This document shows, piece by piece, positions 45,318 to 64,000 of a stretch of DNA of 64,000 bases (its first letter is position 1; every line of letters starts with the position of its first letter). A model generated the notes under the pieces. That model worked only from the letters and a program-made list of their open reading frames with translations, did no database searches and had not been told where the DNA came from. Position numbers and translations under genes: made by a program. Source of the stretch: Roseococcus sp. SDR (lineage in GTDB: Bacteria > Pseudomonadota > Alphaproteobacteria > Acetobacterales > Acetobacteraceae); the NCBI RefSeq assembly GCF_019083995.1, contig NZ_JAHRCU010000007.1:1-64000 (forward strand). Direction: 5' to 3'.

Positions 45318-45372
45318 CGGCCGCTGCGCTCCGGGTTTTGCGGAAGGCTGTCCCACACCGGGCGCGCCATGG

Positions 45373-45987: not shown

Positions 45988-46005
45988 GCTCCGCCCCCGA
46001 TCCGC
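45983..46005. repeat. 23-bp direct repeat, copy 2 (at the integrase stop codon)
   Basis: Overlaps the integrase stop and the GTG start of the GIY-YIG/HTH gene. It matches 45295-45317 exactly, with no extension of homology on either side. Confidence 0.85.
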
Positions 46006-49708: not shown

Positions 49709-49908
49709 CGGCCAACCCTCCGGTTTCCAGCGGTGCTGACGCAGGCGGCGATGAAGGCGACGCGATCCTGGCCGAGCGCAGCCTCGATCATCGCGACACC
49801 CTGACCGCAGGTGTCGGCCGCGAACTCGCGCGCGCGGCAGTCCAAGAGGCGCTGGCTCTCGGCGGGGAACATGCAGACGTAGGCGATCAGGACGAAGGCG
49901 GGGGTCAT
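49705..49908 (-). CDS. Small cysteine-containing, possibly exported protein
   Basis: 67 residues with a hydrophobic N-terminus (PAFVLIAYVCMFPAES) and four cysteines, two after the hydrophobic part. Its reading frame is fixed by ATGA overlaps with genes on both sides. It could be a small periplasmic or membrane peptide expressed early by the element. No family recognised. Confidence 0.5.
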   Translation of the reverse strand: MTPAFVLIAYVCMFPAESQRLLDCRAREFAADTCGQGVAMIEAALGQDRVAFIAACVSTAGNRRVGR

Positions 49909-50162
49909 GACGCGCCTCGGCCGGCGTTCGGCATGGCCGCTGCGAAAAACTCACGCATGATCGCTCGCAGAAGCTCGGCCTGCGCCCGCTGGCGCTCGGC
50001 CTTTATGTCGGCGGCTGCGGCCAGCGCGATGAAGAACGGCAGCGCCACAGACAATGCGAGCATGACGCTGTTGAGCACGATGGCGATGCAGAACAGATAG
50101 ACAGAGGCAGTGAGGGACGCGACGAACGCGCGCCATGTCAGGTCGAGATCGCGGTCGCTCAT
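49905..50162 (-). CDS. Small membrane protein of the early operon
   Basis: 85 residues with one long or two short hydrophobic segments (VYLFCIAIVLNSVMLAL, VALPFFIALAAAADI) followed by a basic amphipathic tail. Overlaps of four bases at both ends support it as a real translated gene. No family recognised. Small membrane proteins in this position may affect superinfection or lysis, but this is inference. Confidence 0.55.
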   Translation of the reverse strand: MSDRDLDLTWRAFVASLTASVYLFCIAIVLNSVMLALSVALPFFIALAAAADIKAERQRAQAELLRAIMREFFAAAMPNAGRGAS

Positions 50163-50374
50163 GGCACCGGCTCGACCCGCTGCCGGGCTTCTCGGGCCTT
50201 CCTGCTCTTCCGGACAGCATCCGCGATGGACAAGCCGATCGCCGCGACCATCGCGACGCCAGCGCCCACCATGAGAGCGCCGACCGTCAACTCGGCGCCG
50301 AGCATCCAGACCACCGCTCCGATCAGGAAGGCATGGAGCGCCAGCGCTGCGCAGGAATCAGCGAGCAGCTTCAT
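50159..50374 (-). CDS. Small membrane protein of the early operon
   Basis: 71 residues with two hydrophobic helices (AALALHAFLIGAVVWMLG, VGALMVGAGVAMVAAIGL) and a basic C-terminus RKSRKAREARQR. ATG at 50374 lies within the end of the upstream gene (17-bp overlap). Two-helix hairpins with a basic tail resemble holin- or exclusion-like proteins, but I cannot assign a role. Confidence 0.55.
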   Translation of the reverse strand: MKLLADSCAALALHAFLIGAVVWMLGAELTVGALMVGAGVAMVAAIGLSIADAVRKSRKAREARQRVEPVP

Positions 50375-50600
50375 TGGTGCCTCCCTGGGGCATGTGGAAG
50401 CGCGCGATCCTGACCTTGATGTACGTGAGGCGCGGCCCTTGTCCGTGCGGATCGATGTCCTGCTGCAGCGCCAGGAACGCCTTCGCTTCCTCCTCCATCC
50501 AGAACGCAATTTTCGGCTGATCGAACGCGCTTGCTGAATGGTCGGGGTGCCTCGCTGCGATGACGTAGAGGCACTCGGGGGGGTGGAGATGGAGAGTCAT
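50358..50600 (-). CDS. Small soluble protein of the early operon
   Basis: 80 residues. Blocks CLYVIAARHPDHSASAF and EEEAKAFLALQQDIDPHGQ suggest a compact alpha/beta fold. Overlaps its neighbours (ATGA upstream with the 151-residue gene; 17 bp downstream). No family recognised. Confidence 0.5.
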   Translation of the reverse strand: MTLHLHPPECLYVIAARHPDHSASAFDQPKIAFWMEEEAKAFLALQQDIDPHGQGPRLTYIKVRIARFHMPQGGTNEAAR

Positions 50601-51052
50601 GACGCACCGTCCGCGGGCTGCACGCCCGGTGCGAGCGCGTCCAGCATGGCAGCGATCTTCGGGACCAGTTCCGCATGGCGCCGGTACCGGCTGACAACGC
50701 GCTCGATGTCGGCGCGCATCTGCCGAAGGAGCAACTCGGCGGTGTCCTCGCGCTCCAGCACAACCGCAGTCGCCGTGAACGCCGATCGGGTTGCATCGAA
50801 GGCATAGGCGCGCACCGGCACTAGACTGCCGGAGGGCGTGGGCAGAAAGGTCACCGCCGCACGGATGACCTGCTTCGCCTGGATGATGCGATACTTGGCT
50901 GCAGCCTCACCGTCGTCCCAGGTGAATGCCCTGTGCAGCGCCGTGTTTGCGCTGCGTGCGAAGTCGACGATCGCGTCAGGAGAGAGATCGCCCCCGGCGT
51001 CCTGGCGGAGCAATTCAAGCTCCGCCATCTGGTCCTTGGTGAGAGAGCGCAT
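50597..51052 (-). CDS. Phage early protein of unknown function
   Basis: 151 residues, soluble, helical at both ends. The middle reads AKYRIIQAKQVIRAAVTFLP then SLVPVRAYAFDATRSAFTA. Its ATG shares one base with the stop of the 215-residue gene upstream. I recognise no family. It follows that gene in every likelihood as a functional partner. Confidence 0.5.
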   Translation of the reverse strand: MRSLTKDQMAELELLRQDAGGDLSPDAIVDFARSANTALHRAFTWDDGEAAAKYRIIQAKQVIRAAVTFLPTPSGSLVPVRAYAFDATRSAFTATAVVLEREDTAELLLRQMRADIERVVSRYRRHAELVPKIAAMLDALAPGVQPADGAS

Positions 51053-51699
51053 CACGCGCGCTCCACTTCGAAGGTGCCGAAGCCCATGCCGGCACTCTGC
51101 TTCGAGTCCGGACGGCCTTCGCCGATGCCGACCTGCATGCCCACCCGGGCAAGGAGGTTCATCACGTCGGTGGCGCTGAACTGGTCCGCGTCGTAGCGGA
51201 TGTTCAGGACCGCCGCCCACTCCCGCCACATTGGCCGGGTGCGAACATCCATCACGCCGGTCGCGTTCCGGACCGGCATGTCTGTCCGCTCAGGCTCGCC
51301 GCCGATGATGCGGATCAGCGGAGTGCCGTCGTCTGCGCTGAAGCCGTCCGCGATCACGAACACGCTGAGCTTGGCCAGGGTCATCTTGAACCCGACCAGC
51401 CGGCAGGCGCTGATCATCGCGTTGCGGATCGCCCCAGCCGCGAAGCCGTCCCAGCCCTCAGTGGAGATGTGCCGGGCCTGCTGAAAAGCTTCGTCGAAGT
51501 CCTTGGCCGCGCGCTTCGATCCCTTCTTCGCAACCGACCCGGCGGCCTGCTTCTCCATCATCGCGTTCTTCGCCTTGGTTGCGAACTTGCAGACCATCAG
51601 CGGCGCGGTGCCGATGATCTTCATCTGCAGGACCCGCAGGTCGGGCGGCGAAATCGCGATCGACTGCTTGACGCCTTCGATTGGAGTGACAGCATTCAT
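51052..51699 (-). CDS. Phage protein with a C-terminal glycine-rich loop (possible RAMP-like fold)
   Basis: 215 residues. The order is: IGTAPLMVCKFATKAK, a charged insert, FAAGAIRNAMISACRLVG, the VFVIADG strand, RTRPMWREWAAVLNI, and a C-terminal GIGEGRPDSKQSAGMGFG loop. The helix after a substrate-like strand plus a late glycine-rich loop is reminiscent of RAMP (Cas7/Cas5-like) folds, though this is only a visual impression. It follows the pentanucleotide array, which would form its 5' leader. Function unknown. Confidence 0.55.
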   Translation of the reverse strand: MNAVTPIEGVKQSIAISPPDLRVLQMKIIGTAPLMVCKFATKAKNAMMEKQAAGSVAKKGSKRAAKDFDEAFQQARHISTEGWDGFAAGAIRNAMISACRLVGFKMTLAKLSVFVIADGFSADDGTPLIRIIGGEPERTDMPVRNATGVMDVRTRPMWREWAAVLNIRYDADQFSATDVMNLLARVGMQVGIGEGRPDSKQSAGMGFGTFEVERA

Positions 51700-51752
51700 G
51701 GTGCTACCTCATGGGTGGTGACGTCCGCGCAGCCCATCTGCGCGGGTAGTGC

Positions 51753-51780
51753 GGCGGATGGGGTTGCAGCCCCATCCGCC
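51753..51780. promoter_or_regulatory. 11-bp hairpin in the leader of the 215-residue gene
   Basis: Perfect arms GGCGGATGGGG (51753-51763) and CCCCATCCGCC (51770-51780) around a 6-nt loop, about 54 bp upstream of the ATG at 51699. It stands between the pentanucleotide array and the gene. It could be an attenuator, a processing site or a protein-binding hairpin. There is no T-run after it. Confidence 0.6.
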
Positions 51781-51785
51781 GATTG

Positions 51786-52215
51786 CGTGCCTGCGATGCG
51801 TATCCGTGCCCCGCCTTGCCGAGGCACGCCTCGCCTGCGGTGCAGCGCCTTGCCTGCTGTGCCTCGCGCGGCCCGGCACTGCCTTGCCTCGCGCTGCCTG
51901 CGGTGTCGGTCCGGACCCCGCCCCGCCTATCCGGGCCCTGCCTTTCGTCGCCTGCCGTGCCGGGCTTCGCCCGACCACGCCTATCCAGCCCTCGCCACGC
52001 CTCGCCTGCCATGTCTGGCCAGTCCTGGCGGTGCCAGACCCAGCCGCGCGATGGGATGCCTCGCCTGCCGAGCCGGTCCGTGCCTTGCCCTTCCCCGCCA
52101 CGCCTCGCCTGCCGAGCCGTGCCATGCGCGTCGATGCCGCGGCACGCCGGGCCGAGCCTGTCGTGCCGTGCTGCGCCACTCCCGTCGAAAGCGCGCCCCG
52201 CCTTGCCTGCGATGC
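51786..52215. repeat. GGCNN pentanucleotide array (about 430 bp)
   Basis: Read on the minus strand, GGC recurs every 5 bp with many variants, so the sequence looks like degenerate tandem GGCNN units. Longer repeats occur within: CACGCCTCGCCTGC at 51825, 51996 and 52099 (plus strand), and an 18-bp repeat at 52058-52075 and 52102-52119. All frames stay open for long distances only because the units lack stop codons; the predicted proteins are low-complexity Arg/Gly/Ala and not credible. Similar arrays occur in some other prophages (from memory), but their role is unknown to me. Confidence 0.8.
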
Positions 52216-52223
52216 TGCGGTCA

Positions 52224-53078
52224 TCACTCGCCGCAACCCCGTGTTCCGCCGCCCGGCAGGGCTTCCTCGAAGGTCTGCCAAGGGACGAAGGTCTCGCCGC
52301 ACCAGAACCCCCAATCCCGGACGCGCGCGCCGGTGGCGAACAGCGTCCATGCGGGCTGGGGTCTGCCGTCCGGCCCAGTGAAAAGCTGGACTCGATGGCG
52401 GTCTGTCGCGCGACGCGGGATCACGTCGCCGGGCAGCCTTATCTGCGGTGCTGCGGTGTCCGTGTGCTCGATGTACCCGCCTGCGAGGATGATCCCGACG
52501 CTGTCGTAGGGATGGTCGTGCAGTGCGCGGTCCTCGTCGGAGCGGAGGAACTCGTGCAGGTAGCAGGAGGCGTCCGCGCTCCGCGGCAGGATGTACCATC
52601 GGCGCATGTAGGGATCGGCTTCGCCGCCGATGATCTTGTCCGGCGGCCGGCAATCCGAAATGTTCTGCCGCAGCACCCGGAGCATCGCTGCCACCAGGAA
52701 GTCGGGCAGACGCGTGGCGCTGAAGGGTGGCGGTTCGGGCTCGAGGGGCCCCGGCTGCGGCCGGACGAAGAGCGGCTGCAGGAAGGCGTCCAGTATCTCT
52801 GCTGCGTAGCGCAGACCGTCGCGCGCATCGCCCGCATATTCGGCGCGCGGGTTGGCGGCGTGATTCCGGAGGATGGTCGGCAGCTGGGGCAGGAACGAGC
52901 CGTAGGCGATGGCGCGCCCGTCGAGGACCGCGGCAGCCGCGGGCTGCGCTTCCCGAAGGGCTCGGTAGACCGCCAGCGCGACATCCGCGTCAGTGCAGCC
53001 ACCATCACCCCAGGTGTCCTGCGCATCGCGCACGGCGGTCTCAAGGGTCTTCAGGAGTGCGGGATCAGGGGCACGCAT
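52224..53078 (-). CDS. Phage protein with cupin-like domain
   Basis: 284 residues. The N-terminal 110 residues are helical. The C-terminal half is a double-stranded beta-helix: RRWYILPR, YLHEFLRSDEDRALHDHPYD, then RLPGDVIPRRATDRHRVQL. HDHP and the later histidine are typical cupin metal ligands. Such proteins are seen in the early regions of several phages without known function. It overlaps the DUF4326 stop by 14 bp. Downstream lies the repeat array. Confidence 0.65.
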   Translation of the reverse strand: MRAPDPALLKTLETAVRDAQDTWGDGGCTDADVALAVYRALREAQPAAAAVLDGRAIAYGSFLPQLPTILRNHAANPRAEYAGDARDGLRYAAEILDAFLQPLFVRPQPGPLEPEPPPFSATRLPDFLVAAMLRVLRQNISDCRPPDKIIGGEADPYMRRWYILPRSADASCYLHEFLRSDEDRALHDHPYDSVGIILAGGYIEHTDTAAPQIRLPGDVIPRRATDRHRVQLFTGPDGRPQPAWTLFATGARVRDWGFWCGETFVPWQTFEEALPGGGTRGCGE

Positions 53079-53457
53079 TGCTGCTCTCCGGCAGGTTGGC
53101 GAGATGGAGGAGGACGTCCGCGTGACAGAGGAACGCGCCGTCAGGTGCCCGCCCGCAGGGGCACCAGCAGGCCAGGGTGCGTCCCCGCAGCGGGGTGGGG
53201 TCGGGCGGAATGGCTGGCGCCAGATGCGTGTCCAGCTTCCAGGTCATCCAGTCGTGGAAGAGGGCAGCGGCCCCCCGGCGCAGCGCGACGGGATCGGCGG
53301 GATCCATGCCGAGCCGCAGGACGCGCTGCCTCACGGTCTCGCTGCCGGCGGCGAATGGGTTCCCCCACTTCGTCGGCCGCGCGACCACCACCGCGCCCTC
53401 GGGCAGACGCCACCCTGGGGCGCGACTGAGGCGGATGCGGGAGGGCGCCGCGGTCAC
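53065..53457 (-). CDS. DUF4326 domain protein
   Basis: 130 residues beginning at GTG 53457, which overlaps the stop of the 56-residue gene upstream (GTGA). The core blocks are VVVARPTKWGNPF and GRTLACWCPCG followed by CHADVLLHLANL, the DUF4326 signature with paired cysteines. The family is common on phages and plasmids; its function is unknown and metal or nucleotide binding has been suggested. The longer frame to 53550 is unsupported. Confidence 0.75.
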   Translation of the reverse strand: MTAAPSRIRLSRAPGWRLPEGAVVVARPTKWGNPFAAGSETVRQRVLRLGMDPADPVALRRGAAALFHDWMTWKLDTHLAPAIPPDPTPLRGRTLACWCPCGRAPDGAFLCHADVLLHLANLPESSNACP

Positions 53458-53624
53458 CAGCCCCTCCCGGCGGCGAAGCCCGCCAGGAAGCCGACCAGGG
53501 CGCCGGAGAGCGCCATGGCGAGCATCCCTACGAGGACGCAGCCTGCGCAACCCTTCTCCTCCGGCACTTCCGTGCCGGGGAGCGCCGGGATGGTCGGCCT
53601 TGGAGGCGGGTTCGCCACGCGCAC
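53454..53624 (-). CDS. Small membrane protein with CxxC motif (not previously called)
   Basis: A 56-residue open frame with GTG start at 53624, two bases after the stop of the DUF2303 gene, and a stop that overlaps the DUF4326 GTG start (GTGA). It has a proline-rich N-terminus, CAGC, and then one hydrophobic helix rich in Gly and Ala ending GRGW. The perfect fit between two neighbours in an operon of overlapping genes is the main support. A GTG at 53618 is an alternative start. Confidence 0.5.
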   Translation of the reverse strand: MRVANPPPRPTIPALPGTEVPEEKGCAGCVLVGMLAMALSGALVGFLAGFAAGRGW

Positions 53625-53626
53625 CG

Positions 53627-54541
53627 TCAGGCCGCCTTCTCAGGCTGGCCGATGAACACCGGGAGGCCCGTCTCCTGCTTCACCCTGGCGACGGCGCGGT
53701 CGAAGGCGTCGAAGAACACCACGTCCGGGCGGTAGCGCTTGAAGGTCCAGAGGATGCGGCCTTCGTCGCGGCGATAGGTCAGCCGGATCGGCAGCCGATA
53801 AGCCGCGTCGCCGTCGAAGACCGGGATCCCGATGACAAAGAGGTTAGGCACCTTGAGGGGCTGCTTCTTGTCGTCGGTGTGGGTCGTGCGGAACACGATC
53901 TCGACTTCGCCGGTGGCGAGGTTCTGCGCGTTGGCAACCTCCGCGGTTTCCGTCATGCGGAGCCCGCGCGAGATTTCCAGGAGCTTGGAGGGGCCGGCGA
54001 TCTCGCCGCCAAGCATGGCGAGCATGTCATTCGCCAGGGAGCCGGCATCGCCCGCGCCGTCGCCCGGCGCGATGATGTCCATGATCCGCTCCTCGATGAA
54101 GGCTGCGAAGTCGCGTTGCGTCTGCGTCTTGCCGTCGCGCAGCCGCCATGCGTTCCACTGCTCGCTGGTCGGGAAAGCGTAGTGGCCGCGGTGCCCCAGA
54201 AAGCGGGCGTCGGCGATCTCCGGCCCTTCCGGGTGATAGTCGAACACGCTGGTGACCGAGGGAGCCTCCTCGTCCCGCCGCGCGAAGATGGCGCTGTTCG
54301 GAGCCTTGAACCGCGTGGCATGGGCGATGAAGCTCTCGAGGTCGCTCAGCGTGGCGAGACCGCGGCGCCGCTCGGGCTGGGTGCGGTATTCGTCCATCAG
54401 AGGCTTCACGCTCCGGACGTCGACGCCCTTCGGGACGGCGAGGATTTCGGTGCCGTTGTCCAGAGTGACGATCTGCGGCGCGTGCAGGTCCTTCACCGTC
54501 TCGATGATGCTGCGCGCGTCGTTGGTGGCCTGTTCGGGCAT
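53627..54541 (-). CDS. DUF2303 (YfdQ-family) phage protein
   Basis: 304 residues matching YfdQ/DUF2303 proteins. Blocks are HAPQIVTLDNGTEILAVPKG, FIAHATRFKAPNSAIFA, DHRGHYAFPTSEQW-like WNAWRLRDG, and KVPNLFVIGIPVFDGDAAYR. The family is found in recombination or early regions of many temperate phages; its biochemical function is not known. It sits in the middle of the leftward early operon, 25 bp downstream of the 122-residue gene. Confidence 0.85.
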   Translation of the reverse strand: MPEQATNDARSIIETVKDLHAPQIVTLDNGTEILAVPKGVDVRSVKPLMDEYRTQPERRRGLATLSDLESFIAHATRFKAPNSAIFARRDEEAPSVTSVFDYHPEGPEIADARFLGHRGHYAFPTSEQWNAWRLRDGKTQTQRDFAAFIEERIMDIIAPGDGAGDAGSLANDMLAMLGGEIAGPSKLLEISRGLRMTETAEVANAQNLATGEVEIVFRTTHTDDKKQPLKVPNLFVIGIPVFDGDAAYRLPIRLTYRRDEGRILWTFKRYRPDVVFFDAFDRAVARVKQETGLPVFIGQPEKAA

Positions 54542-54566
54542 TCGGATTCTCCTGGGGTGTCGGGGT

Positions 54567-54935
54567 TCAGGCGATCGCGCCGCTGCGCGGCACGCTCACA
54601 TCGCGGAAGGGCAGGTCCGGCTGCGCCGGATTGCGCTTCGTCAGCTGGTTGTCGTGGGTGGCCCAGAAGATCGTCCGGCCGCGGGCGAGCTTCGGAGCCT
54701 TCACCTTGAAATCGGCGATGGTCTCGACGATCCCGTCGTCGAATTTCAGCGCGAAGCTGATGTCGAGCTTCCCCGCTGCCTTGCCGGTGCGCTGGGCGGC
54801 TTCGCGGAGGGCTTCGACGAGTTCCTGCAGCGCATCGGTGAGGTCGCTGTGGAGGCGGCCGTCCTCGCTCTCGGCGATGAACATCGAGAAGCTCCGCGCT
54901 GGCGGGGCAGGCGGAGTGGGTTGGGTTTCGCTCAT
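54567..54935 (-). CDS. Phage early protein of unknown function (YfdP-like position)
   Basis: 122 residues. It has a proline-rich start, a helix (DALQELVEALREAAQRTG) and a beta region KLDISFALKFDDGIVETIADF, ending AQPDLPFRDVSVPRS. In many phages a small gene accompanies DUF2303 at this position. No family assigned. Its ATG overlaps the stop of the 89-residue gene (ATGA). Confidence 0.6.
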   Translation of the reverse strand: MSETQPTPPAPPARSFSMFIAESEDGRLHSDLTDALQELVEALREAAQRTGKAAGKLDISFALKFDDGIVETIADFKVKAPKLARGRTIFWATHDNQLTKRNPAQPDLPFRDVSVPRSGAIA

Positions 54936-55201
54936 GCCGCAGCCGCCTTCTGCTTGGTGCGCACGACCCCGACGTCGATCCGTGCGGTGGGCACCGCCGC
55001 CTCGACGGCAGCGCGGAAGCCGGCGATGTGCGGTTCCAGCCCGGCGATGAGCTTCGCCTGGGCGATCGGATCGGACGGGACCGCCATCGTGGCGACGATG
55101 CGCAGTTCGTGCCGCGGGTCCGGTTCGGGCTGGTGTGGGATGGCTGCACGCACGACCACCGAATCGGCAGACGGCGCGTGCGGGGCTTCGGTATCGTCCA
55201 C
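54932..55201 (-). CDS. First gene of the leftward early operon, unknown function
   Basis: 89 residues beginning at GTG 55201 with a GAGGAG ribosome site 7 bp upstream. The region DPRHELRIVATMAVPSDPIAQ and PTARIDVGVVRTKQ suggest a small alpha/beta protein. It is the first gene downstream of the divergent control region with TGTAGCG boxes and is therefore the head of the operon that ends with integrase and the GIY-YIG gene. The longer frame would run into that control region. Confidence 0.6.
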   Translation of the reverse strand: MDDTEAPHAPSADSVVVRAAIPHQPEPDPRHELRIVATMAVPSDPIAQAKLIAGLEPHIAGFRAAVEAAVPTARIDVGVVRTKQKAAAA

Positions 55202-55251
55202 GCGATGCTCCTCGGATCGGCCAAGCCGGGATCGGCGTGGCGTGTCCGGGA

Positions 55252-55322
55252 CGCTACATAAAGTCGCGCTACACGACAAGCCCTATTGTCGCGCGTGTAG
55301 CGGCGTGCGGATCGCTGTAGTT
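55252..55322. promoter_or_regulatory. Control region 1 with four TGTAGCG-type boxes (early operon / vsr-dcm)
   Basis: Boxes: CGCTACAT (55252-55259), CGCTACAC (55267-55274), GTGTAGCG (55295-55302) and CTGTAGTT (55315-55322). The first two are direct repeats 15 bp apart; the second and third form an inverted pair that also encloses GACAA/TTGTC (55275-55279, 55286-55290). The region lies between the early operon (left) and vsr (right). Confidence 0.65.
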
Positions 55323-55330
55323 TCCGCTTG

Positions 55331-55801
55331 ATGGCAGACCGGCTGACCCCTGCGCAGCGCAGCGCGAACATGGCCCGCATCCGCGGGAAGGACACGAAGC
55401 CGGAAATCCAGGTGCGGCGGATGTTGCACGCGCTCGGCTACCGCTTCCGGCTCCACCGGCGCGATCTGCCGGGGCGTCCGGACATTGTGCTCCCCGGGCG
55501 GCGGGCCGCGATTCTGGTCCACGGCTGCTTCTGGCACGGGCACCCGGGCTGCCGGGACTGCGTCATCCCTGCGACCAGAACGGAGTGGTGGACGGCCAAG
55601 ATCGATGGCAACAGGCGGCGCGATGCCAGGAACATCCGCAGGCTCAGAGGCCTCGGGTGGTCTGTCACCGTGGTCTGGGAGTGCAGCCTGCGCAGGCCCG
55701 ACGCGGTGAGCCGCCGGCTGCAGCGATTCCTCGGGCCACCCGGGCCGCTGGCGCGAATCGGGTCAACAGGCGCACATTCCTGCGCCGGAGCAGAGGACTG
55801 A
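55331..55801 (+). CDS. vsr: Very-short-patch-repair endonuclease (Vsr)
   Basis: 156 residues. Asp51 (GRPDIVLPG) and His69 (FWHGH) match the numbering of the catalytic Asp51 and His69 of E. coli Vsr. The zinc-binding set includes His64-Gly-Cys66 and the HPGCRDC cysteines, and WWTAKIDGNRRRD follows. It nicks 5' of T in T:G mismatches that arise when 5-methylcytosine deaminates, and normally accompanies a cytosine-C5 methylase, as here: dcm begins 1 bp after its stop. I start at ATG 55331 and not the TTG one codon earlier. Confidence 0.93.
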   Translation: MADRLTPAQRSANMARIRGKDTKPEIQVRRMLHALGYRFRLHRRDLPGRPDIVLPGRRAAILVHGCFWHGHPGCRDCVIPATRTEWWTAKIDGNRRRDARNIRRLRGLGWSVTVVWECSLRRPDAVSRRLQRFLGPPGPLARIGSTGAHSCAGAED

Positions 55802-55802
55802 T

Positions 55803-57281
55803 ATGGACGCGCGTGTTCCCCCGATTGTCGCCGACCCAGCCGTGGCGCGGAAGCTGCAGCGCCTCGCCGAGGGGAAGGCGCCGCGCGTGCTCGACCTCTT
55901 TTCCGGCTGCGGCGGGATCAGCCTGGGCTTCACGAAGGCAGGCTTCTCGATCGCCGCGGCCATGGAGATCGACGAACTCGCGGCACGGTCGCACGCGCTG
56001 AATTTCCATGCTGCGGATCCGGACATGCTGGAGCAGCACGCGAAGCCGCGGGACGTGACCAGGATCGAGCCGGAGGATTTGTGCGCCGAACTCGGTCTCG
56101 GCAGCGTCGAGGAGTCGATCGACGTGATCGTGGGCGGTCCGCCCTGCCAAGCCTATGCCCGCGTCGGGCGCGCGAAGCTGCGCGAGGTTGCGGAGCACCC
56201 GGACGCCTTCAAGGTCGATCCGCGCGGCAACCTGTACCTGCGCTATCTCGCCTACGTCCGTGCCTTCCGGCCGCTCGCCCTGCTGATGGAGAACGTGCCG
56301 GATATCCTGCACTACGGCGGTCACAACGTGGTCGAAGAGATCGTCGAGACGCTGGACGGCTACGGCTATGACGCCCGGTACTCGCTGATCAACAGCGCCT
56401 TCCACGGCGTGCCGCAGATGCGCGACCGCGTGTTCCTGGTTGCCTACCGGCGCGACCTCGGAATCCGTCCGACCTTCCCCAAGGCGTCGCACCACATGAC
56501 CCTGCCGCCCGGCTATGCCGGCACGCGGGCGGTGGCGTTGCGCTTCGTCGATCTGCTCGGCGGCGCCGGCTATGTGCAGGCGGACCTCGGCAACGAATCC
56601 CTGCCTTTCCCGGTCACTGCATTCGAGGCGATCGGCGACATGCCTCCGATCCGCGGGGACAGCGTGAAGCGCGGCGCCCGGAGGTTCGGACCGGACACCT
56701 TCACACCCTACCGCAGCACGAACGCGCTGAGCGCCTACGCCGCGGCGATGCGGCAATGGCCGGGCTTCGAAGGCCAGGGCGGCGTTGTCGATCACGCGAT
56801 CCGTGCGCTGCCGCGCGATGGAGGCATTTTCGCCGCCATGCCAGAAGGCGCGGAGTACCCGGAGGCCCACCGGGTTGCGACCCGCCTGTTCGAAGAAGAG
56901 GCGGCGCGACGCGGGATCACGCGCAGGATGAAGGCCTGGGCGGAACTCGAGGCGGAGATGGTGCCGCCCTATGATCCGTCGAAGTTTCCGAACCGCTGGT
57001 GGAAGCTGCGGCGCGATTTCCCGGTCCGCACCCTCATGGCGCACATCGGCAAGGACACCTACAGCCACATCCACTACGACCCGAAGCAGGCACGGACGAT
57101 CAGCGTGCGTGAGGCTGCGAGGCTGCAAAGCTTCCCGGACGGCTTTCGGTTTGCCGGCACCATGAATCCGGCGTTCAGGCAGATCGGGAATGCAGTGCCG
57201 CCGATGATGGCGAATGCGCTGGCGCGGGTGATGAAGGAGGCGCTGGACGGCGCCGCCCTGCGTCTGGCACCGCCCCGGTAA
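55803..57281 (+). CDS. dcm: DNA cytosine-C5 methyltransferase 1
   Basis: 492 residues. Motif I is LDLFSGCGGISLGF (30-43), the catalytic PCQ is in GGPPCQAYARVG with Cys115, ENV is at 163-165, and motif X is GNAVPPMMANALARV near the C-terminus. It methylates cytosine in a specific sequence that the target-recognition domain (about 280-400) would define. It follows vsr in the same unit. Its stop is 3 bp from the restored stop of the convergent DUF3883-type gene. Confidence 0.95.
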   Translation: MDARVPPIVADPAVARKLQRLAEGKAPRVLDLFSGCGGISLGFTKAGFSIAAAMEIDELAARSHALNFHAADPDMLEQHAKPRDVTRIEPEDLCAELGLGSVEESIDVIVGGPPCQAYARVGRAKLREVAEHPDAFKVDPRGNLYLRYLAYVRAFRPLALLMENVPDILHYGGHNVVEEIVETLDGYGYDARYSLINSAFHGVPQMRDRVFLVAYRRDLGIRPTFPKASHHMTLPPGYAGTRAVALRFVDLLGGAGYVQADLGNESLPFPVTAFEAIGDMPPIRGDSVKRGARRFGPDTFTPYRSTNALSAYAAAMRQWPGFEGQGGVVDHAIRALPRDGGIFAAMPEGAEYPEAHRVATRLFEEEAARRGITRRMKAWAELEAEMVPPYDPSKFPNRWWKLRRDFPVRTLMAHIGKDTYSHIHYDPKQARTISVREAARLQSFPDGFRFAGTMNPAFRQIGNAVPPMMANALARVMKEALDGAALRLAPPR

Positions 57282-58443
57282 GGCTCAGGCTTCTTCCTCT
57301 TCGTCCGGCAGCGTCTCCTCCGGCTCCTCCTCCGCGCGGATCGTCAGCGGCGGGAGGGATGGAGAAGCTGTCCGCGGTGATCTGCGCGAACATCGCGCCG
57401 TTGTGGGCAGCGAGAAGGCGCTTGGCGAAGTCGCGGATATCGCCTGAAACCCGCAACTCGCACTGGTCGGCGGTCAGGCTGAACACGCGATAGATCAGGT
57501 AGGGCTGCGGGCTTCCCGCCGCCTCGGTGACCTCTGCCAGCGACATGTGGAAGTCGGCGGTGAAGGGGCCGCGGGTGGACTTCACGTCGATGCGCTGCTG
57601 CTCTGTGAACAGCCCGTTGTGCACCACCAGAAAGTCGAAGGGCGCGATCGCGTTGGTCCGCGACACCCACGCATGTTCCTGGGCAGCGCCGCGCGCCTCC
57701 TCGCGGGTCAGATGCAGATCGACGAAGGCTTCCCCCTCGGCGCCAGTGCGCTCCGCTGCCTGCTTTGCCTTGGCCAATTCCTCTGCGGTGACGGGCCGGG
57801 CCTTCCGGGTGCGGGTCAGCTTGCGGGCACCCTTGGTGCCGCCCAGTGCGATGTCTTCGAGGGCCTGGGCTTCTTCAGCGTCGAAGGCCAGGGAGGCGAT
57901 CGGATGGGTCGGATCGGCACGCGACGCGGCGATCGCGGCGGCGATATCGCCCGGCCGGAGGGCTGCCATCGTCATCCTGCCGCCACGGATGAAGGGGCGC
58001 AGCGCCGCGTGCAGACCGGCGTCTTGGGCTGCGTCCTGCGCCAGCAGCACGAGGGTCATGGCGTCCGGTGCCGGCCGGCCGCGGAAGGCCATGACTGCCA
58101 GATCGCCGGGCTTCAGGAGGTCGAAGCGCCCGCGCTGGCCCTCGGGGTCGTAGATGAACTCCCCGTTCAGCCGCCAGTTCTTGTAGGCGGCGCCCTTCAC
58201 GATCTTCCGCCGGAGCCGCAGGGCGGGGGCGGCGTCAGGGCCGTGCACGGTCAGTACCAGCCCGATTTCGCCGTCCGGCGATGCATCTGCTGCCGCTTCG
58301 AGGTCGGGAAACAGGCGGCCGGTGAGGACGTCCGCGTTGAGGTTGATGGCCTTCTGGTTTCCCGCGTCGAGACGGCGGTACAGCGCCTCGAAGAAGGTCA
58401 GGTCGGAGGCGGTGAGGCGTTTCAGGGCAAGGGCATCGGCCAT
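57175..58443 (-). CDS. DUF3883/NOV-like PD-(D/E)XK nuclease-domain protein (probable 3' frameshift)
   Basis: About 400 residues. The C-terminal part has GAEGEAFVDLHLTREE, APFDFLVVHNG, QRIDVKSTRGPF and HMSLAEVTEAAG, with Asp and xDVKST forming the restriction-endonuclease fold of the NO VEIN (DUF3883) type. As annotated, the last 60 residues turn into low-complexity sequence overlapping dcm by 107 bp. A one-base shift near 57350-57357 instead gives an acidic tail (EEEPEETLPDEEEEA) and a stop at 57285, just 3 bp from dcm. Neighbours suggest the restriction partner of a methylase. The promoter box abuts the start codon. Confidence 0.75.
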   Translation of the reverse strand: MADALALKRLTASDLTFFEALYRRLDAGNQKAINLNADVLTGRLFPDLEAAADASPDGEIGLVLTVHGPDAAPALRLRRKIVKGAAYKNWRLNGEFIYDPEGQRGRFDLLKPGDLAVMAFRGRPAPDAMTLVLLAQDAAQDAGLHAALRPFIRGGRMTMAALRPGDIAAAIAASRADPTHPIASLAFDAEEAQALEDIALGGTKGARKLTRTRKARPVTAEELAKAKQAAERTGAEGEAFVDLHLTREEARGAAQEHAWVSRTNAIAPFDFLVVHNGLFTEQQRIDVKSTRGPFTADFHMSLAEVTEAAGSPQPYLIYRVFSLTADQCELRVSGDIRDFAKRLLAAHNGAMFAQITADSFSIPPAADDPRGGGAGGDAAGRRGRSLSLTGAVPDAGRRRPAPPSSPAPAHSPSSAALHSRSA

Positions 58444-58458
58444 GCTGCATGATGTAGC
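58444..58458 (-). promoter_or_regulatory. Control region 2, part A: TGTAGC box abutting the nuclease start
   Basis: GCTGCATGATGTAGC (plus strand) matches 13 of 15 bases at 63608-63622 in front of the repressor gene. It contains the box ATGTAGCA. On the minus strand CATCAT (58449-58454) could be a -10 that places the transcription start at the ATG, giving a leaderless mRNA. Confidence 0.55.
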
Positions 58459-58525
58459 AGGCGATGCTGCAGGAGAAGAACACTGGTGTTGCCCGAAAGA
58501 CGCAGAAAGCCTTGCCAGCCTGCCC

Positions 58526-58554
58526 CGCCGCCACTACAAAATGTAGCGGCGGCG
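58526..58554. promoter_or_regulatory. Control region 2, part B: 29-bp palindrome upstream of the second C5 methylase
   Basis: Arms of 13 bp (58526-58538 and 58542-58554) are inverted with one mismatch around a 3-bp AAA centre, with TGTAGCG boxes at the core (CCACTACA and ATGTAGCGG). It lies 17 bp before the TTG start of the gene at 58571 and about 83 bp from the nuclease start. An ideal dimer operator. Confidence 0.75.
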
Positions 58555-58570
58555 TGATTGGATTACTGTC

Positions 58571-59572
58571 TTGCTGGTGAGTCTGTTCTGCGGTCTGGGA
58601 GGGATGGACCTCGGCTTCGAAGCCGCCGGCTTTCGCGTGGGCGCAGCGTATGACATCCGCCAGGACAGCGTTGCCACCTACAACCTGAACCGGCCTGACG
58701 CCGCTGTCGCTGCCGTCCAGGACATTCGCGACCTGAAGCCTGCAGACATCCTTGCCACAATCGGCGGAGCCTGTTCGGGTGTCATCGGCGGGCCGCCCTG
58801 CCAGAGCTTCACCCAGGCCAACCGGCACCAGTCTGACGATGATCCGCGACGCGAGATGCTCGGGCAGTTCGCGCGCATCCTCGGCGGCTTGAACAGGGCA
58901 GCACCGGTGCCGTTCTTCGTCATCGAGAACGTGCCCTGCCTGCAGAGGGACCCTCATCTCGGCCGGCTGAAAACCCTCGAGGCAAGGCTTCGCCGGATTG
59001 GCTTCAATGTCACGCGGGTGGTGTTGAACGCTGGCGACCACGGCACGCCGCAGAACCGGCGCAGGCTGTTCCTGGTGGGGATCAACAGGCAACTGCACCC
59101 GGGCGTTTCCTGGAAGGCGCCTGAACCGGCAGAACACCGGCTGACTGTCCGGGATGCGATAGGCGCGCTGCCTGAGCCGGTAACCTTCGCATCGGCATCA
59201 ACCATCGACGAGATACCGCACCATCCGAACCACTGGTGCATGACGCCGAAGAGCCGGCGCTTCCTGACGCCGGGGCTGCTACGCGCCGGCGACGGCAACA
59301 AGCGGAGCTTCAAGGTGCTGGCGTGGGACCGCCCCAGCCTTGCCGTCGCCTACGGCAATCGCGAGGTCCATGTGCATCCCGGCTGCCACCGCCGCCTGTC
59401 GATCTTCGAAGCGATGCTCCTGCAGGGCTTTCCCGCGGAGTTTCGGGTAGCCGGGACGATGTCGTCGCAGATCACTCAGGTCAGTGAAGCGGTCCCACCG
59501 CCGCTGGCGCACGCTGTGGCCGGGTCCATTAAGGCCCTGCTCCATCGAACGGAGTTGCGCAGCGCTGCCTGA
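58571..59572 (+). CDS. DNA cytosine-C5 methyltransferase 2
   Basis: 333 residues. Motif I SLFCGLGGMDLGFEAAGF begins almost at the N-terminus, Cys77 is in GGPPCQSF, ENV at 119-121, motif VIII QNRRRLFLVG, and motif X SEAVPPPLAHAVAG at the C-terminus. The target-recognition region is shorter than in methylase 1 and the protein is only distantly related to it. Start is TTG at 58571 or GTG at 58577; no strong ribosome site is visible. It ends 3 bp from the convergent 417-residue gene. Confidence 0.93.
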   Translation: MLVSLFCGLGGMDLGFEAAGFRVGAAYDIRQDSVATYNLNRPDAAVAAVQDIRDLKPADILATIGGACSGVIGGPPCQSFTQANRHQSDDDPRREMLGQFARILGGLNRAAPVPFFVIENVPCLQRDPHLGRLKTLEARLRRIGFNVTRVVLNAGDHGTPQNRRRLFLVGINRQLHPGVSWKAPEPAEHRLTVRDAIGALPEPVTFASASTIDEIPHHPNHWCMTPKSRRFLTPGLLRAGDGNKRSFKVLAWDRPSLAVAYGNREVHVHPGCHRRLSIFEAMLLQGFPAEFRVAGTMSSQITQVSEAVPPPLAHAVAGSIKALLHRTELRSAA

Positions 59573-59575
59573 GCA

Positions 59576-60829
59576 TCATGCCTGCGCGTCCTGGAGGATC
59601 CACGCGCAGTCCATGGGGCGGACGTTATGCGTCTTCAGCCACTCCACCCATCCCTCGATCGGATAGTTCGCTGCGGCCAGCAGTTCTGCCTGCTCCCTGA
59701 TGGCCGTCGTGCGGACCTCCGTCATCGTCTCGATGCCGCTGTCGAGATTGCGAAAGCAAGCTGCTCTGCGAAGCATGCGCTTTATCTCTTCGATCTCCGG
59801 CTGCGGAACGGCGACAGCAGCCACGCGCGCCGCGGTGACCGGCTGATCATCACGAGGGGACACCCGGAATGCGAGCGCCAGCATGTCCGGCTCGTCTCCG
59901 GACACGCGATATCCGAAGACGCTGGTGAGGTCCACGCGTGCGCTTCTGCCGATCTGGTTGTTGAAGAAGTGCAGCAGGTGCTTGCCCAACCCGACCGTGA
60001 ACATCTTCAGGAACAGTTCCCCGTCGGCCGCCCATGCCGCGGACGCACCACCGTCCTGCTGGTCGAGACCAGTGACTGCACGCAAACCATCGATGAAGGC
60101 GGGACCATCATGCTCGATGTTCTGCTTCACGATGCTCTTCAGGGTGTCCGCTCCGTGTCCTCGGAAGTCCCCAGCAGCCGCACGAGTGGTCACGAAGAGC
60201 AGCCAAGGATCGCGCCTCTGCAGCTGGTGCACCATCAGCTTCTGCAGAGCGGCGAAAAGCGTGCGCGCTTCGCCGGGAGCGTCACAGCAGAGATGGCTGC
60301 ACGCGTCGAGATTAATGACGTCAAACGCTCCGGCGTCCTGAAGCTGACGCTGCGCGACCGATCCGTCGACGGCAATCTCCTCGATTTGTCCGACCCGGAG
60401 CTTGGACTCCATGGTCGCCAATTGGTCCTGCCGCAGGGCGGCGAGGGCCTCCTCGCCGGGGCTGCCCGGACCATCCGTGTCGCCCGCACTCCTGTCGAAG
60501 CCAAAGACCTCCAACTTGAACGGGCCGTCGCCGCGGGACCGTAAACGGCCGCCGATGTAGCGGGCATCCATCATGTCAGCGCCGGGCAGCGTCAGATACC
60601 GCAGCACGCCCCGCGTAACATGACCATCACCGATCAGCCGCTCGATCTGCTCTGCCCACTGGCGGGCGCGGACCACTTGCTTAACCGGATGGTGCCAGGG
60701 TGCGAATTCCCGCCGACGCCGGCTTTGGGGCTGCACGGCAGCGTCATCGAGGGGGCCGTAGGCATCCTCGATTTCCCGATCAACTTCGCTCACAGCGTCC
60801 CTGGCGGACAGAGGATTCCCTTCGCTCAC
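59576..60829 (-). CDS. Unknown protein with methyltransferase-like features, partner of the GHKL ATPase
   Basis: 417 residues with GTG start at 60829, 5 bp after the ATPase stop. Two blocks look like a Rossmann-type fold: LRYLTLPGADMMDARYI near residue 75 and FDVINLDACSHLCC near residue 168. Other conserved-looking features are WHHPVKQVVRARQWAEQI near 45 and the C-terminal YPIEGWVEWLKTHNVRPMD. I recall similar proteins beside GHKL ATPases but cannot name a family with confidence. It may modify, recognise or be the effector of the ATPase. No nuclease motif is obvious. Confidence 0.55.
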   Translation of the reverse strand: MSEGNPLSARDAVSEVDREIEDAYGPLDDAAVQPQSRRRREFAPWHHPVKQVVRARQWAEQIERLIGDGHVTRGVLRYLTLPGADMMDARYIGGRLRSRGDGPFKLEVFGFDRSAGDTDGPGSPGEEALAALRQDQLATMESKLRVGQIEEIAVDGSVAQRQLQDAGAFDVINLDACSHLCCDAPGEARTLFAALQKLMVHQLQRRDPWLLFVTTRAAAGDFRGHGADTLKSIVKQNIEHDGPAFIDGLRAVTGLDQQDGGASAAWAADGELFLKMFTVGLGKHLLHFFNNQIGRSARVDLTSVFGYRVSGDEPDMLALAFRVSPRDDQPVTAARVAAVAVPQPEIEEIKRMLRRAACFRNLDSGIETMTEVRTTAIREQAELLAAANYPIEGWVEWLKTHNVRPMDCAWILQDAQA

Positions 60830-60834
60830 CGCCG

Positions 60835-62847
60835 TCAGTCCTGATGGAAGACAGAGAAGATGGCGCGCACGAGCCGCTCCTGCTCGGCAATTGAGCGGTC
60901 CTCCAGGATGCCGAATGCTGCGAGCACCTTCAGCAGTGCCTCTGCCTGGGCACGACGCTGGATCGCCTCCGCAGTGGTTCCAGCCGACATCTGCGGCAGG
61001 ACGGCAGCCGGGAATGCAATGATGCCATCGTTCCTCGCCGCCTGCGCCCGGGCACGATCGCGTGCGATCTCGACGTCGGGAGGGGCCTCGTCGCCCTGTT
61101 CTTCGCGCCAGACCTGATCGGCGAACTCGCCGAGGCGGCTGCGCGACTCAACAGCGTCCTGGCCCTTCCGATCCGCAAGGGCCTTCGCGCTGAGTTCCTT
61201 GTGCCTATTGGTCAGCTGCCGAAGCGCGCGGTGGAGCCACGACGAGGTAAGCCGCACATGCGGATGGGCGAAGTTGAAGGACTCACGGTCGATGTTCAGC
61301 GCCGCGTCGAGGCCTTCGCGCACGAAAAGCTCCGAAGTGATCTGGCGCAGGCGCGTCTGTTCGGAGACCTGATACTTGAAGAAGCTCTCATCGAAGTTGG
61401 CTCCGCTCGCGCCTCGGATGCGGACGAGCACGCCGTTGTTCTCCTTCGGAATGATCCTGCCGTTCCAGAACAGGTACGCCTCGAACCCGAGCCTGCCTCC
61501 GCGCAGGTCGCGAGGCACACGGTTCAAGTCAGGCTCATAGTCTCCGACCATAAGGATGCTGCGATCGAGACCGCGGACGCTGGCGGAGATGTACTTGAAG
61601 CTGATCGGTCGCTTCAGCTCGATCTGGTCGACGACCACGCGCATTGGCGAACCGCCTGCCCCTACGCCATCTTCAAGGCGATGCTTGCCACCGGACCAGC
61701 GCGCGACTGCTTGCCGGACGGTCTCGCCCGGTCTCATCGGGACCTCGGTGGCCTGCTCCCTCTCGCGGTTTCCCAGCCAGAACAGCCGGATTTTGTCCTC
61801 CGCCGTGAGGTCGAACGGATGGCTCTCGACGTAGGGGACAGGGACGGACAGACCAAGCTGCCAGATCATCGCGAGGTAGTAGTCCAGCGCGGTGCCGAGA
61901 TCCGGGCGGTTGTGCCGCGTGAACTGATCGGCCACACCGGCAACCAGCTTGGCCATCCGGCGTGACGGATCATCGCCCGGGTCCCACGGAAGACGGGGCG
62001 TCTCGGTGAACGTCGGAACGTCGTCGGCAGCCGGCACGTTCGAGCCAAGCCACCCCGCATGAAAAGCGGGAGGTTCCAGCTTTACAGCAGTCGCGGTGTC
62101 GCCTGTGCCTGAAGTCCGCGCGCTTTTCAGGTCGTCAAGCGCGCGCCATCGATCCGCACTCCGCAGAGTGTCACGCGCTGCAGGCTTGATCGCATCGAGA
62201 ATGATATCCGTACCATGCGCATCCGGATCGACTGCGCGCTCTCTGACGATTTCTACCTTGCCGCTGAGGTACTGATCGTCGTCGAGGCCTTCATCGGCTT
62301 CGGGATCCTCGGAATGCTGACGTAGGATCACGTTCGCGATCAGCCGGTAGTCCTCCCCCTTCCGCTTCGTCACGATGGTGAAGCGACGAGTCAGCTGGCT
62401 GACGGAGAAAAGCCCGATGCCGATCTTTCCGATGAACGGACGGCCACCGGGAGTGCGCTCGGCGTTGTCGACAGCGGTGATGCCGAGGTCCTGGCCCTCA
62501 TGTCTGCGCTTCGCGCTGCCGCCGATGCTGTTGATCACGTGCGACAACGTGTTGTGGCTCATCCCGAGACCGTCGTCGCGGATCGTGATCCGGGAGAAGC
62601 GCGGTGCGTCCGTCTCGATCGATACGTTCTGGGCGTCGGCATCCCAGGCATTGGCGATAAGTTCCCGGAGCGCAGAGCCGGGCAGCCGGTAGATGCCGTC
62701 GGTAACCCTCGCTATGACTCTGGTGTTGACGGAGAGCCGCGTGCTGACCGGCTTCCCGACATTGGCGTCGTCCCGAAGGTATGCACTCAGCTGCTCTTCG
62801 CCCTGGACAACCGGAATGGCCTCCTCGGCAGGCATAGCGCCGCTCAC
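60835..62847 (-). CDS. GHKL-type ATPase (MutL/MORC-like), defence-associated
   Basis: 670 residues. The Bergerat ATP-binding fold has the N-box RELIANAWDADA (61-72), G1 DDGLGM (91-96), and G2 GKIGIGLFS (140-148), then a long C-terminal region with no known domain. It is not MutL (no dimerisation or endonuclease motif) and not HtpG by length. Prokaryotic MORC-like GHKL proteins are known to travel with methylases, Vsr and nucleases (Iyer, Abhiman and Aravind). GTG start at 62847 overlaps the repressor stop (GTGA), so both are co-translated. An ATG at 62835 is an alternative. Confidence 0.85.
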   Translation of the reverse strand: MSGAMPAEEAIPVVQGEEQLSAYLRDDANVGKPVSTRLSVNTRVIARVTDGIYRLPGSALRELIANAWDADAQNVSIETDAPRFSRITIRDDGLGMSHNTLSHVINSIGGSAKRRHEGQDLGITAVDNAERTPGGRPFIGKIGIGLFSVSQLTRRFTIVTKRKGEDYRLIANVILRQHSEDPEADEGLDDDQYLSGKVEIVRERAVDPDAHGTDIILDAIKPAARDTLRSADRWRALDDLKSARTSGTGDTATAVKLEPPAFHAGWLGSNVPAADDVPTFTETPRLPWDPGDDPSRRMAKLVAGVADQFTRHNRPDLGTALDYYLAMIWQLGLSVPVPYVESHPFDLTAEDKIRLFWLGNREREQATEVPMRPGETVRQAVARWSGGKHRLEDGVGAGGSPMRVVVDQIELKRPISFKYISASVRGLDRSILMVGDYEPDLNRVPRDLRGGRLGFEAYLFWNGRIIPKENNGVLVRIRGASGANFDESFFKYQVSEQTRLRQITSELFVREGLDAALNIDRESFNFAHPHVRLTSSWLHRALRQLTNRHKELSAKALADRKGQDAVESRSRLGEFADQVWREEQGDEAPPDVEIARDRARAQAARNDGIIAFPAAVLPQMSAGTTAEAIQRRAQAEALLKVLAAFGILEDRSIAEQERLVRAIFSVFHQD

Positions 62848-63599
62848 GACCCCACCTGCCGGCCGAGCCAGATCACGCGCCCGATCACGGTGATCATGTC
62901 CGCCTGAATATCCCGGAGAGGCTCATACAGCGGGTTGTCGGACAGGATGCTGAGCGTCCTCGATGCGAGGTTGGTCTGGATGCGCTTCACCTGCAGCCCG
63001 TCATCTGAACGCAGCACGTAGATGCCATCCTTCCTGCCGGGACGGGTCTGCCCGAAATCCACCAGGACCTTGTCGCCCTGGCGGAGGGTCGGCTCCATCG
63101 AATCTCCGTCGACCTTCACCAGAGCGAGTTGCTCCAGCGGTGACTGCGTGATGCCGCGCACCCATTCCTCCCTGAACGGCACGCGGTAGAGCACCACTTC
63201 GCCGTCAACATCGGCACCGTGCCCTGCCGATGCCTTGGCGTCGTAGAGCGGGATAAGCGCCACCGGCTGTCCTGCCACATCGACGACTTCGGCCCGCGGG
63301 ACAGGCGGTGGCGGGATCGGCCGGCGGCTCACGCGCTGGCCGAGGGCTACCGAGGCCTCCTCTGCCGTCTCCGCAGCGTCATCCTTGCCGAACAGCAGCC
63401 TCTGCCAGGGGCATTCGAGGATGGCTGCCAGCTGCTGCGCGGCGCGCGCGGTGAGCGGTCGCCGCCCGGCCTCATAGGCGCGGTAGGTCGCCTCGGGGAT
63501 GTTGGCGCGCCGCGCGAGTTCCGCGCCGCTGCCAATCCCTTTGTCTTCGCGGAAGCGGCGGAGCCGTTCTGCTGGCGTGTCCATCGGAAGCATGCTCAT
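62844..63599 (-). CDS. S24-family CI/LexA-like repressor
   Basis: 251 residues. An XRE-type HTH covers residues 8-62 (GSGAELARRANIPEATYRAY). The C-terminal S24 peptidase-like domain has Ser167 in VDGDSMEPT and Lys205 in LQVKRIQ as the Ser-Lys dyad. The self-cleavage site is predicted at Ala125-Gly126 in AKASAGHGAD. RecA-stimulated cleavage should therefore relieve repression. The -10-like CATAAT lies 13 bp before ATG 63599, implying a leader of only a few bases, as with lambda cI. It is first of a three-gene operon with the GHKL ATPase. Start at 63593 or 63584 is possible. Confidence 0.92.
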   Translation of the reverse strand: MSMLPMDTPAERLRRFREDKGIGSGAELARRANIPEATYRAYEAGRRPLTARAAQQLAAILECPWQRLLFGKDDAAETAEEASVALGQRVSRRPIPPPPVPRAEVVDVAGQPVALIPLYDAKASAGHGADVDGEVVLYRVPFREEWVRGITQSPLEQLALVKVDGDSMEPTLRQGDKVLVDFGQTRPGRKDGIYVLRSDDGLQVKRIQTNLASRTLSILSDNPLYEPLRDIQADMITVIGRVIWLGRQVGS

Positions 63600-63607
63600 C
63601 TAAAGGC

Positions 63608-63697
63608 GTTGCATTATGTAGCGGACAACACGCGCGAAGGAAAGTCGTTTCAGCGCGACCTTTGGGTCTTGCGACTGTAGCGCGCCTTATTGTAGCG
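63608..63697. promoter_or_regulatory. Control region 3 with three TGTAGCG boxes (repressor / Cro-like)
   Basis: Boxes are ATGTAGCG (63616-63623), CTGTAGCG (63675-63682) and TTGTAGCG (63690-63697). The last two are direct repeats 15 bp apart, the same spacing as in control region 1. The first lies in the 15-bp element shared with region 2 and overlaps the -10 of the repressor gene. This is the switch region between repressor and Cro-like genes. Confidence 0.7.
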
Positions 63698-63705
63698 TCC
63701 GGGGC

Positions 63706-63930
63706 ATGCGGACGTTCCCTGACGTGATTGCGATCTGGCCCAGCGCCTCCGACCTCGCGCGAGAACTGGGCGTGCGGGATGTGACCGTCCGTGCGTGGCG
63801 CCAGCGCGGCATCCCCGCCCGCTTCTGGCCGGTGGTCGTGAAGGCGGCGAAGCGCCGCAAGGTGAAGCTCACTGTCGATCAGCTCGCGGGGATGGCTTCC
63901 CCGCGGAAGGCGCCGGTGCGCAATGGCTGA
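63706..63930 (+). CDS. Cro-like / carph-isopro-type HTH protein
   Basis: 74 residues with a short HTH: SASDLARELGVRDVTVRAWRQRG, and a basic C-terminus KRRKVKLTVDQLAG. Gene position, divergent from the S24 repressor across a region with three boxes, fits a Cro-type early regulator. The IP-A-FW-VV segment is like carph-isopro-domain proteins of alphaproteobacterial prophages. It starts the rightward operon and overlaps the next gene by 8 bp. Confidence 0.8.
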   Translation: MRTFPDVIAIWPSASDLARELGVRDVTVRAWRQRGIPARFWPVVVKAAKRRKVKLTVDQLAGMASPRKAPVRNG

Positions 63931-64000
63931 ACCCCGGCCCGTCCTGGCGATCGACCTCGGCACCACCACAGGCTGGGCGCTCCAGGCTGGCGGCGTCATC
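63923..64000 (+). CDS. RuvC/RNase H-fold nuclease (Holliday-junction resolvase-like), partial
   Basis: Only the first 26 codons are present. VLAIDLGTTTGWAL matches the first strand of RuvC-like nucleases, with the catalytic aspartate in IDLG. Phages commonly encode such a resolvase after Cro. It overlaps the Cro-like gene by 8 bp and is cut by the window end. Confidence 0.6.
   Translation, partial: MAEPRPVLAIDLGTTTGWALQAGGVI

Follow-up and report, generated by a model that had tools for sequence, protein, structure and literature searches.

Positions 55331–62847 of a 64,000-nucleotide stretch of the genome of Roseococcus sp. SDR (contig NZ_JAHRCU010000007.1, positions 1 to 64,000; hereafter the window) hold two adjoining, separate gene cassettes rather than one six-gene set, and both sit within the immunity region of a tRNA-Arg-integrated prophage. 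The first, unit A (55331–58443), consists of vsr, dcm1 and a DUF3883 gene and has the make-up of a type II restriction-modification (R-M) set; the second, unit B (58571–62847), consists of a further C5 cytosine methyltransferase gene, dcm2, the gene of a 417-residue PP_RS20740-family protein (hereafter PP) and that of a GHKL ATPase. We read both as R-M-type cassettes and propose for unit B, with a probability of roughly 0.6, that dcm2 marks self DNA while the ATPase and PP act on DNA that lacks the mark. Since 2008, restriction has been the predicted role of GHKL/MORC-like ATPases encoded next to methylases; unit B, a small conserved set of three genes without a recognisable nuclease, asks whether a MORC-like ATPase needs a nuclease at all to exclude unmarked DNA. 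If true, the proposal would also give a function to the PP_RS20740 family; the one paper matched by that name describes a mutation for furfural tolerance in Pseudomonas putida (PMC9630843).

Unit B recurs as a module. The co-occurrence of PP and the ATPase in other genomes had been proposed as a check on the original prediction and was borne out: with the two proteins as separate queries they were found beside each other in 29 of the 31 further distinct loci (given as L numbers where needed), the two exceptions, L052 and L058, being cut by the contig end. A C5 methylase adjoins PP or the ATPase in 27 of the 31, and in all the misses (L016, L020, L052 and L058) the module stands at the end of a contig. 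Searches with PP gave 12 loci in genome contigs and 20 in viral contigs, and those made separately with the ATPase in viral contigs gave 13 and 18; a first scan of the genome contigs with a single PP sequence had returned none, the 12 loci coming from a repeat with a two-row alignment. The count leaves aside L022, which contains the L012 module exactly, and L009, which is contained in L015, and scores L020, where PP lies in two frames, as having PP. Some of the viral loci are closely related, and the 31 loci amount to 28 clusters at 90%, 23 at 70% and 14 at 50% PP identity. The module is present in the prophage of the window and in viral contigs, and the hosts given in record titles are alpha-, beta- and gammaproteobacteria.

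Two layouts of unit B were seen, a collinear one (methylase-ATPase-PP) and a convergent one as in the window. In a tree of the ATPases of 21 modules (which omits L016 and L020, with no methylase in view, L022, L029 and L034, as well as loci added afterwards), the window ATPase clusters with those of the convergent loci L010, L011, L012 and L023 (support 100/100), and two more convergent loci, L013 and L015, form a separate pair. Across the same 21 modules the pairwise distances of PP and the ATPase are correlated at r=0.96, against 0.75 for methylase and ATPase and 0.79 for methylase and PP; none of 2000 permutations reached values as high. The methylase of L025, only 30–32% identical, deviates in an otherwise conserved NHW(C/T)M-PKS stretch, and this one case suggests that the methylase gene may be replaced more readily than those of PP and the ATPase. 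The window's own methylase, dcm2 (58571–59572, plus strand; 333 residues), matches PF00145 (E 1e-50) and, like dcm1, carries the catalytic PCQ and ENV motifs of C5 cytosine methyltransferases. Relatives of dcm2 beside ATPase/PP genes are 30–53% identical, and PPCQ and ENV are conserved without exception in 19 of 19.

The original prediction had joined all six genes at 55331–62847 into a single candidate anti-phage system. The genes it named are indeed there, all six with library matches and lying among phage genes, and they are packed in the window with no other genes between them. As one new defence system spanning the whole 7.5 kb, they are nonetheless very improbable, and this explanation is already disfavoured: no DUF3883 relative was seen in the available flanks (some of them short) of any of the 31 unit-B loci, and neither PP nor the unit-B ATPase was seen in the 11–17 kb around any of the seven other DUF3883 loci. 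Units A and B occur apart in other genomes, and the combination of two methylases with a NOV-like nuclease is a meeting of two cassettes. A candidate anti-phage role remains a reasonable inference for each unit taken singly.

The seven other DUF3883 loci, which came from three plasmid records, one viral contig and three further genomes in a search of 299 from the same order (with the window's own genome as a fourth match), have a consistent composition of their own. A dcm1-like methylase (54–78% identity) and vsr stand in the same cluster in all seven, and vsr directly adjoins dcm1 or the DUF3883 gene in six; in the Azospirillum locus L038 it lies about 3.4 kb from dcm1 with two genes between. 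The three genomes, which are of the same family, show the layout of the window, vsr and dcm1 followed by a convergent DUF3883 gene, and in one genome, G826, the DUF3883 gene is shortened and lacks the part matching residues 49–215. In the window, vsr (55331–55801, plus strand; TIGR00632 E 4e-42, Pfam Vsr E 2e-31) encodes a very short patch repair endonuclease and is followed after a single base by dcm1 (55803–57281, plus strand; 492 residues; PF00145 E 4e-56). The DUF3883/NOV_C protein (57175–58443, minus strand) scores 25.9 bits against PF13020 (E 1e-5; Pfam threshold 22.1), and its E-D-DxK nuclease site is intact and invariant in five of five aligned sequences, which makes it a PD-(D/E)XK protein and a probable restriction nuclease. 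In unit A, dcm1 would protect its own sites, the DUF3883 protein would cut unprotected ones, and Vsr would repair T:G mismatches arising from 5-methylcytosine (5mC). The set is type II R-M-like and a candidate defence system.

Vsr also bears on a different explanation of unit B, namely that it is a repair or methylation-maintenance module in which a MutL-like ATPase works with Vsr at 5mC sites and dcm2 is a solitary methylase. A Vsr gene lies within about 4 kb of unit B in seven of the 31 loci (some flanks being short), and Vsr-like genes have been proposed to stabilise solitary C5 methylases (PMC12907096). However, 24 of the 31 loci have none within that distance in the flanks at hand, and in genomes of the same family vsr accompanies dcm1 and the DUF3883 gene, so that we regard this explanation as unlikely.

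The ATPase of unit B (60835–62847, minus strand; 670 residues; HATPase_c_3 E 1e-15) is paraMORC-like, and its ATP site is intact. Alignments of 24 members each were made for PP (without L020 and L022) and for the ATPase (without L022 and L034, where the ATPase lies in two frames), and in the latter E62, N66, D69, D91, G93, G95 and K141 are invariant in 24 of 24, providing the N-box, DxGxG and G2 elements. A structural model (predicted local distance difference test, pLDDT, 81.7) resembles Hsp90, TopoVI-B, MORC2 and MutL, and the profile compared with the PDB matches chains of MutL, Hsp90 and MORC (MORC2/3). Besides the HATPase families, the GHKL-like Sacsin family was matched by 19 of the 24 members. 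In the C-terminal part, residues 518–543, where a long helix of the model begins, form a stretch (NIDRESFN-x-AHPH...WLH...R) that is almost invariant in 24 relatives; it includes an HPH at 528–530, with H528 in 23 and H530 in all 24. A nuclease fused to the ATPase was considered and rejected: no nuclease family is common to the 24 members, and none stood among the best 50 Foldseek matches listed.

The 417-residue protein encoded between dcm2 and the ATPase gene (59576–60829, minus strand), which we predict to be an effector or sensor subunit, had been thought unfamiliar. It belongs in fact to an existing NCBIfam family, NF047698 (PP_RS20740), with 269.9 bits (E 4e-80) against a cut-off of 200 over positions 15–383 of 384, yet it has no match in Pfam, PHROG or PADLOC. 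Other family matches of its members, followed up to E 10, comprise nine families, each matched by no more than two members (best E 0.0084), and were taken as chance. A confident AlphaFold2 model (pLDDT 86.6; predicted template-modelling (TM) score 0.85) was compared with the PDB by Foldseek. Class I methyltransferases made up most of the best 50 of 1286 matches, and GRAS domains and fatty-acid-synthase chains also occurred; within these 50 the best E was 8e-5, TM was at most 0.33 of the query and the root-mean-square deviation was large. In a viral structure library most matches of the model, again at low TM, were to methyltransferases or to long polymerases and replicases of viruses.

Invariant in all 24 aligned PP members are an N-terminal PWH-K-R-QW pattern, D85, D88, N173, D175, C177, Q202, W209 and T214. 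Where a Gly-rich motif I (GxGxG) would be expected, all 24 have LPGxD. In usual S-adenosylmethionine (SAM) sites strand 2 ends in an acidic residue; the corresponding PP residue is N in 18 of 24 members and D in two, one of them the window protein. From the invariant residues, the absence of GxGxG and the mostly non-acidic end of strand 2, we infer a degenerate SAM site and a conserved pocket other than a standard SAM site. These features bear on the alternative of PP as an active methyltransferase that places a second modification under control of the ATPase, in which case the set would modify phage or host DNA and not restrict. Its class I methyltransferase-like model would suit such a role, but the departures in motif I and strand 2, the lack of profile similarity to dcm2-type methylases and a PDB sequence search in which nothing matched the PP profile better than E 0.22 make it quite improbable. 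Two further readings of PP were rejected, one as a derivative of the dcm2-type methylases, to which the profiles show no similarity, and one as a Toprim partner of the TopoVI kind, no Toprim standing among the best 50 of the 1286 Foldseek matches.

Several known systems resemble unit B in part. In the BbrUII/HgiDII family (NF050001) a C5 methylase likewise stands next to a protein with an N-terminal GHKL ATPase, and the window ATPase is 37% identical, across 116 aligned columns in the ATPase domain, to a protein of this family in L081, the activity of which is assigned by family name. Against NF050001 itself it scores 69 bits over residues 52–227 of 670, far from the cut-off of 550, and lies outside the family. 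The L081 protein has a C-terminal D...ExK stretch (seen by eye), whereas no nuclease is recognised in the window ATPase, and the 3.4 kb available of the L081 locus hold no third open reading frame of 200 residues or more, whereas unit B has PP. The mza system (MzaB model NF041932) provides a further MutL-like ATPase in a defence setting. A GHKL ATPase domain is also shared with VcSduA, a GHKL-Shedu protein proven in phage defence, which loses defence when either its ATPase or its nuclease site is altered (PMC12137116). VcSduA differs in having a fused DUF4263 nuclease and, in the accessible text, no named methylase partner (PMC12137116).

The kind of gene set, a GHKL/MORC-like ATPase beside a methylase, is known from Iyer et al. 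(2008), who predicted MORC and paraMORC ATPases in R-M systems with C5 methylases and Vsr (PMC2292703). The MORC family proper has a GhXhhpXXRhl motif in the S5 domain, and the paraMORC families comprise GHKL+S5-like ATPases beside C5 methylases and Vsr, as around unit B (PMC2292703). A C-terminal HxH motif is given for paraMORC5, with which, by description and not by alignment, the HPH of the window ATPase can be compared, whereas the paraMORC passages accessible in that paper name no partner like PP (PMC2292703). A unit-B-like layout of C5 methylase, GHKL protein and partner, often with Vsr, is also found in the HEF_HK/Response_reg_2 modules (Bellieny-Rabelo et al. 2021, PMC8011034), and this similarity prompted the idea, since rejected, that PP is a Response_reg_2 relative. 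Their partner is receiver-like (PF19192), whereas PP has no profile similarity to two such proteins; PF19192 was found in none of the 24 PP members, neither PF19191 nor PF19192 matches the window proteins or the 24-member PP and ATPase alignments, and the HEF_HK ATPases share with that of unit B a short weak match at the ATP site only. No earlier description of this three-gene module or of a function of PP stood among the literature matches listed, in a search made mainly outside subscription journals.

In the working that we propose for unit B, dcm2 would mark self DNA with 5mC; the ATPase and PP would form one complex acting on DNA that lacks this mark. The ATPase would serve as an ATP-gated clamp, like MutL, MORC and TopoVI-B, and PP, by way of its invariant pocket, as reader of the mark or as catalytic subunit, in place of the nuclease domain fused in other GHKL restriction enzymes; the outcome would be phage defence, as superinfection exclusion by the lysogen. 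In the nearest GHKL systems of known or named activity the ATPase has its own nuclease; in unit B no nuclease domain is seen, and PP is always beside the ATPase where the contig allows. A split effector is the simplest reading, with PP in the place that the nuclease has in HgiDII-like and Shedu GHKL enzymes. More tentatively, and with considerable doubt, the PP_RS20740 family might represent a restriction effector of a new kind: a subunit of Rossmann fold, derived from methyltransferases, which works with a nuclease-less MORC-like clamp, senses the absence of 5mC and either cuts through a pocket unrelated to PD-(D/E)XK, HNH and Toprim or blocks DNA by clamping alone.

Several observations weigh against the proposed restriction by unit B. 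PADLOC, from which PP is absent, matches the ATPase over its GHKL region only. Given the low TM, the likeness of the PP model to methyltransferase-like Rossmann folds is superfamily-level at best, and the distance correlation of PP and ATPase speaks for joint inheritance and not for binding. The PP family is also rare: NF047698 was found in 1 of 385 genomes of the class, 2 of 398 of the phylum and 1 of 200 of the order, the window's own genome included each time, and the unit-B ATPase at E 1e-40 in this genome alone among the 299. In separate searches PP was not found in plasmid and phage records, where the ATPase is matched in part only (18–36% of its length in 15 plasmids, 19% in one phage record) and where dcm2 reaches an identity of at most 34% among the best 12 of 3264 plasmid matches.

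No nuclease domain, moreover, was recognised in PP or the ATPase by Pfam, member-wide family or structure/PDB comparisons. This last point would equally suit a mode of action without cutting, in which a clamp of the MORC type compacts, loops or silences DNA that comes in unmethylated and PP reads methylation or sequence, and the resemblance of the ATPase model and profile to MORC2/3, Hsp90, MutL and TopoVI-B, as well as the methyltransferase-like fold of PP with its degenerate SAM site, would fit it too. On the other hand, the GHKL systems of known or named activity carry nucleases, and both PP, in its invariant acidic pocket, and the ATPase, in its HPH...WLH stretch, could have an unrecognised catalytic site; we consider a purely non-cutting clamp possible, although rather doubtful.

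That the cassettes lie inside prophage regulatory genes, as had been suggested, is supported by their surroundings: leftward genes (DUF2303) flank them on one side and a CI-like XRE/S24 prophage repressor on the other (62844–63599, minus strand; Pfam S24 and HTH_3; PHROG 4, transcriptional repressor, E 5e-43). The end of the repressor gene and the start of the ATPase gene overlap by 4 bp, and from this overlap and the close spacing that follows, the repressor, ATPase and PP genes are probably read as one transcript. A scan for consensus promoters found none against 0.6 expected, and one for terminators found one against 4.7 expected. Convergent pairs had been described as ending about 3 bp apart, which is true of dcm2 and PP (ends at 59572 and 59576), but not of dcm1 and the DUF3883 gene (ends at 57281 and 57175), which overlap tail to tail by 107 bp. 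The last approximately 55 residues of the DUF3883 protein (57175–57340, minus strand), running antisense into dcm1, fall outside the BLAST matches to its relatives, and an earlier stop codon may have been lost.

The window contains the left part (45192–64000) of this prophage of about 59.5 kb, the carrier of units A and B. Its attL, 22 bp at 45192–45213, lies in the 3′ part of tRNA-Arg(CCT) (45140–45216), the integrase gene follows at 45984–47030, and an exact repeat of attL, the attR, lies about 59.5 kb away, outside the window, at 104710–104731 of contig C7. The integrase gene is followed to the right by prophage genes for single-strand-binding, exonuclease, helicase, primase, portal, head-protease, tape-measure and tail-fibre proteins. 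A further DNA methyltransferase gene (47256–48164, minus strand; PHROG 56) adjoins the integrase gene, which gives the prophage at least three methylases, and the same genome has additional C5-methylase matches on contigs C3 and C23. A gene at 52224–53078 (minus strand), in the prophage's left part, strongly matches PHROG 4786, named cysteine dioxygenase, and a tandem repeat, short and rich in GC (period 44, 2.1 copies), lies at 52058–52148. Near the right end (L043 560–900, corresponding to contig C7 104550–104890), partial att copies with matches of 14 and 15 bp stand about 80–90 bp either side of the 22-bp att core, inside longer repeated units; they are possibly traces of repeated integrations at tRNA-Arg(CCT).

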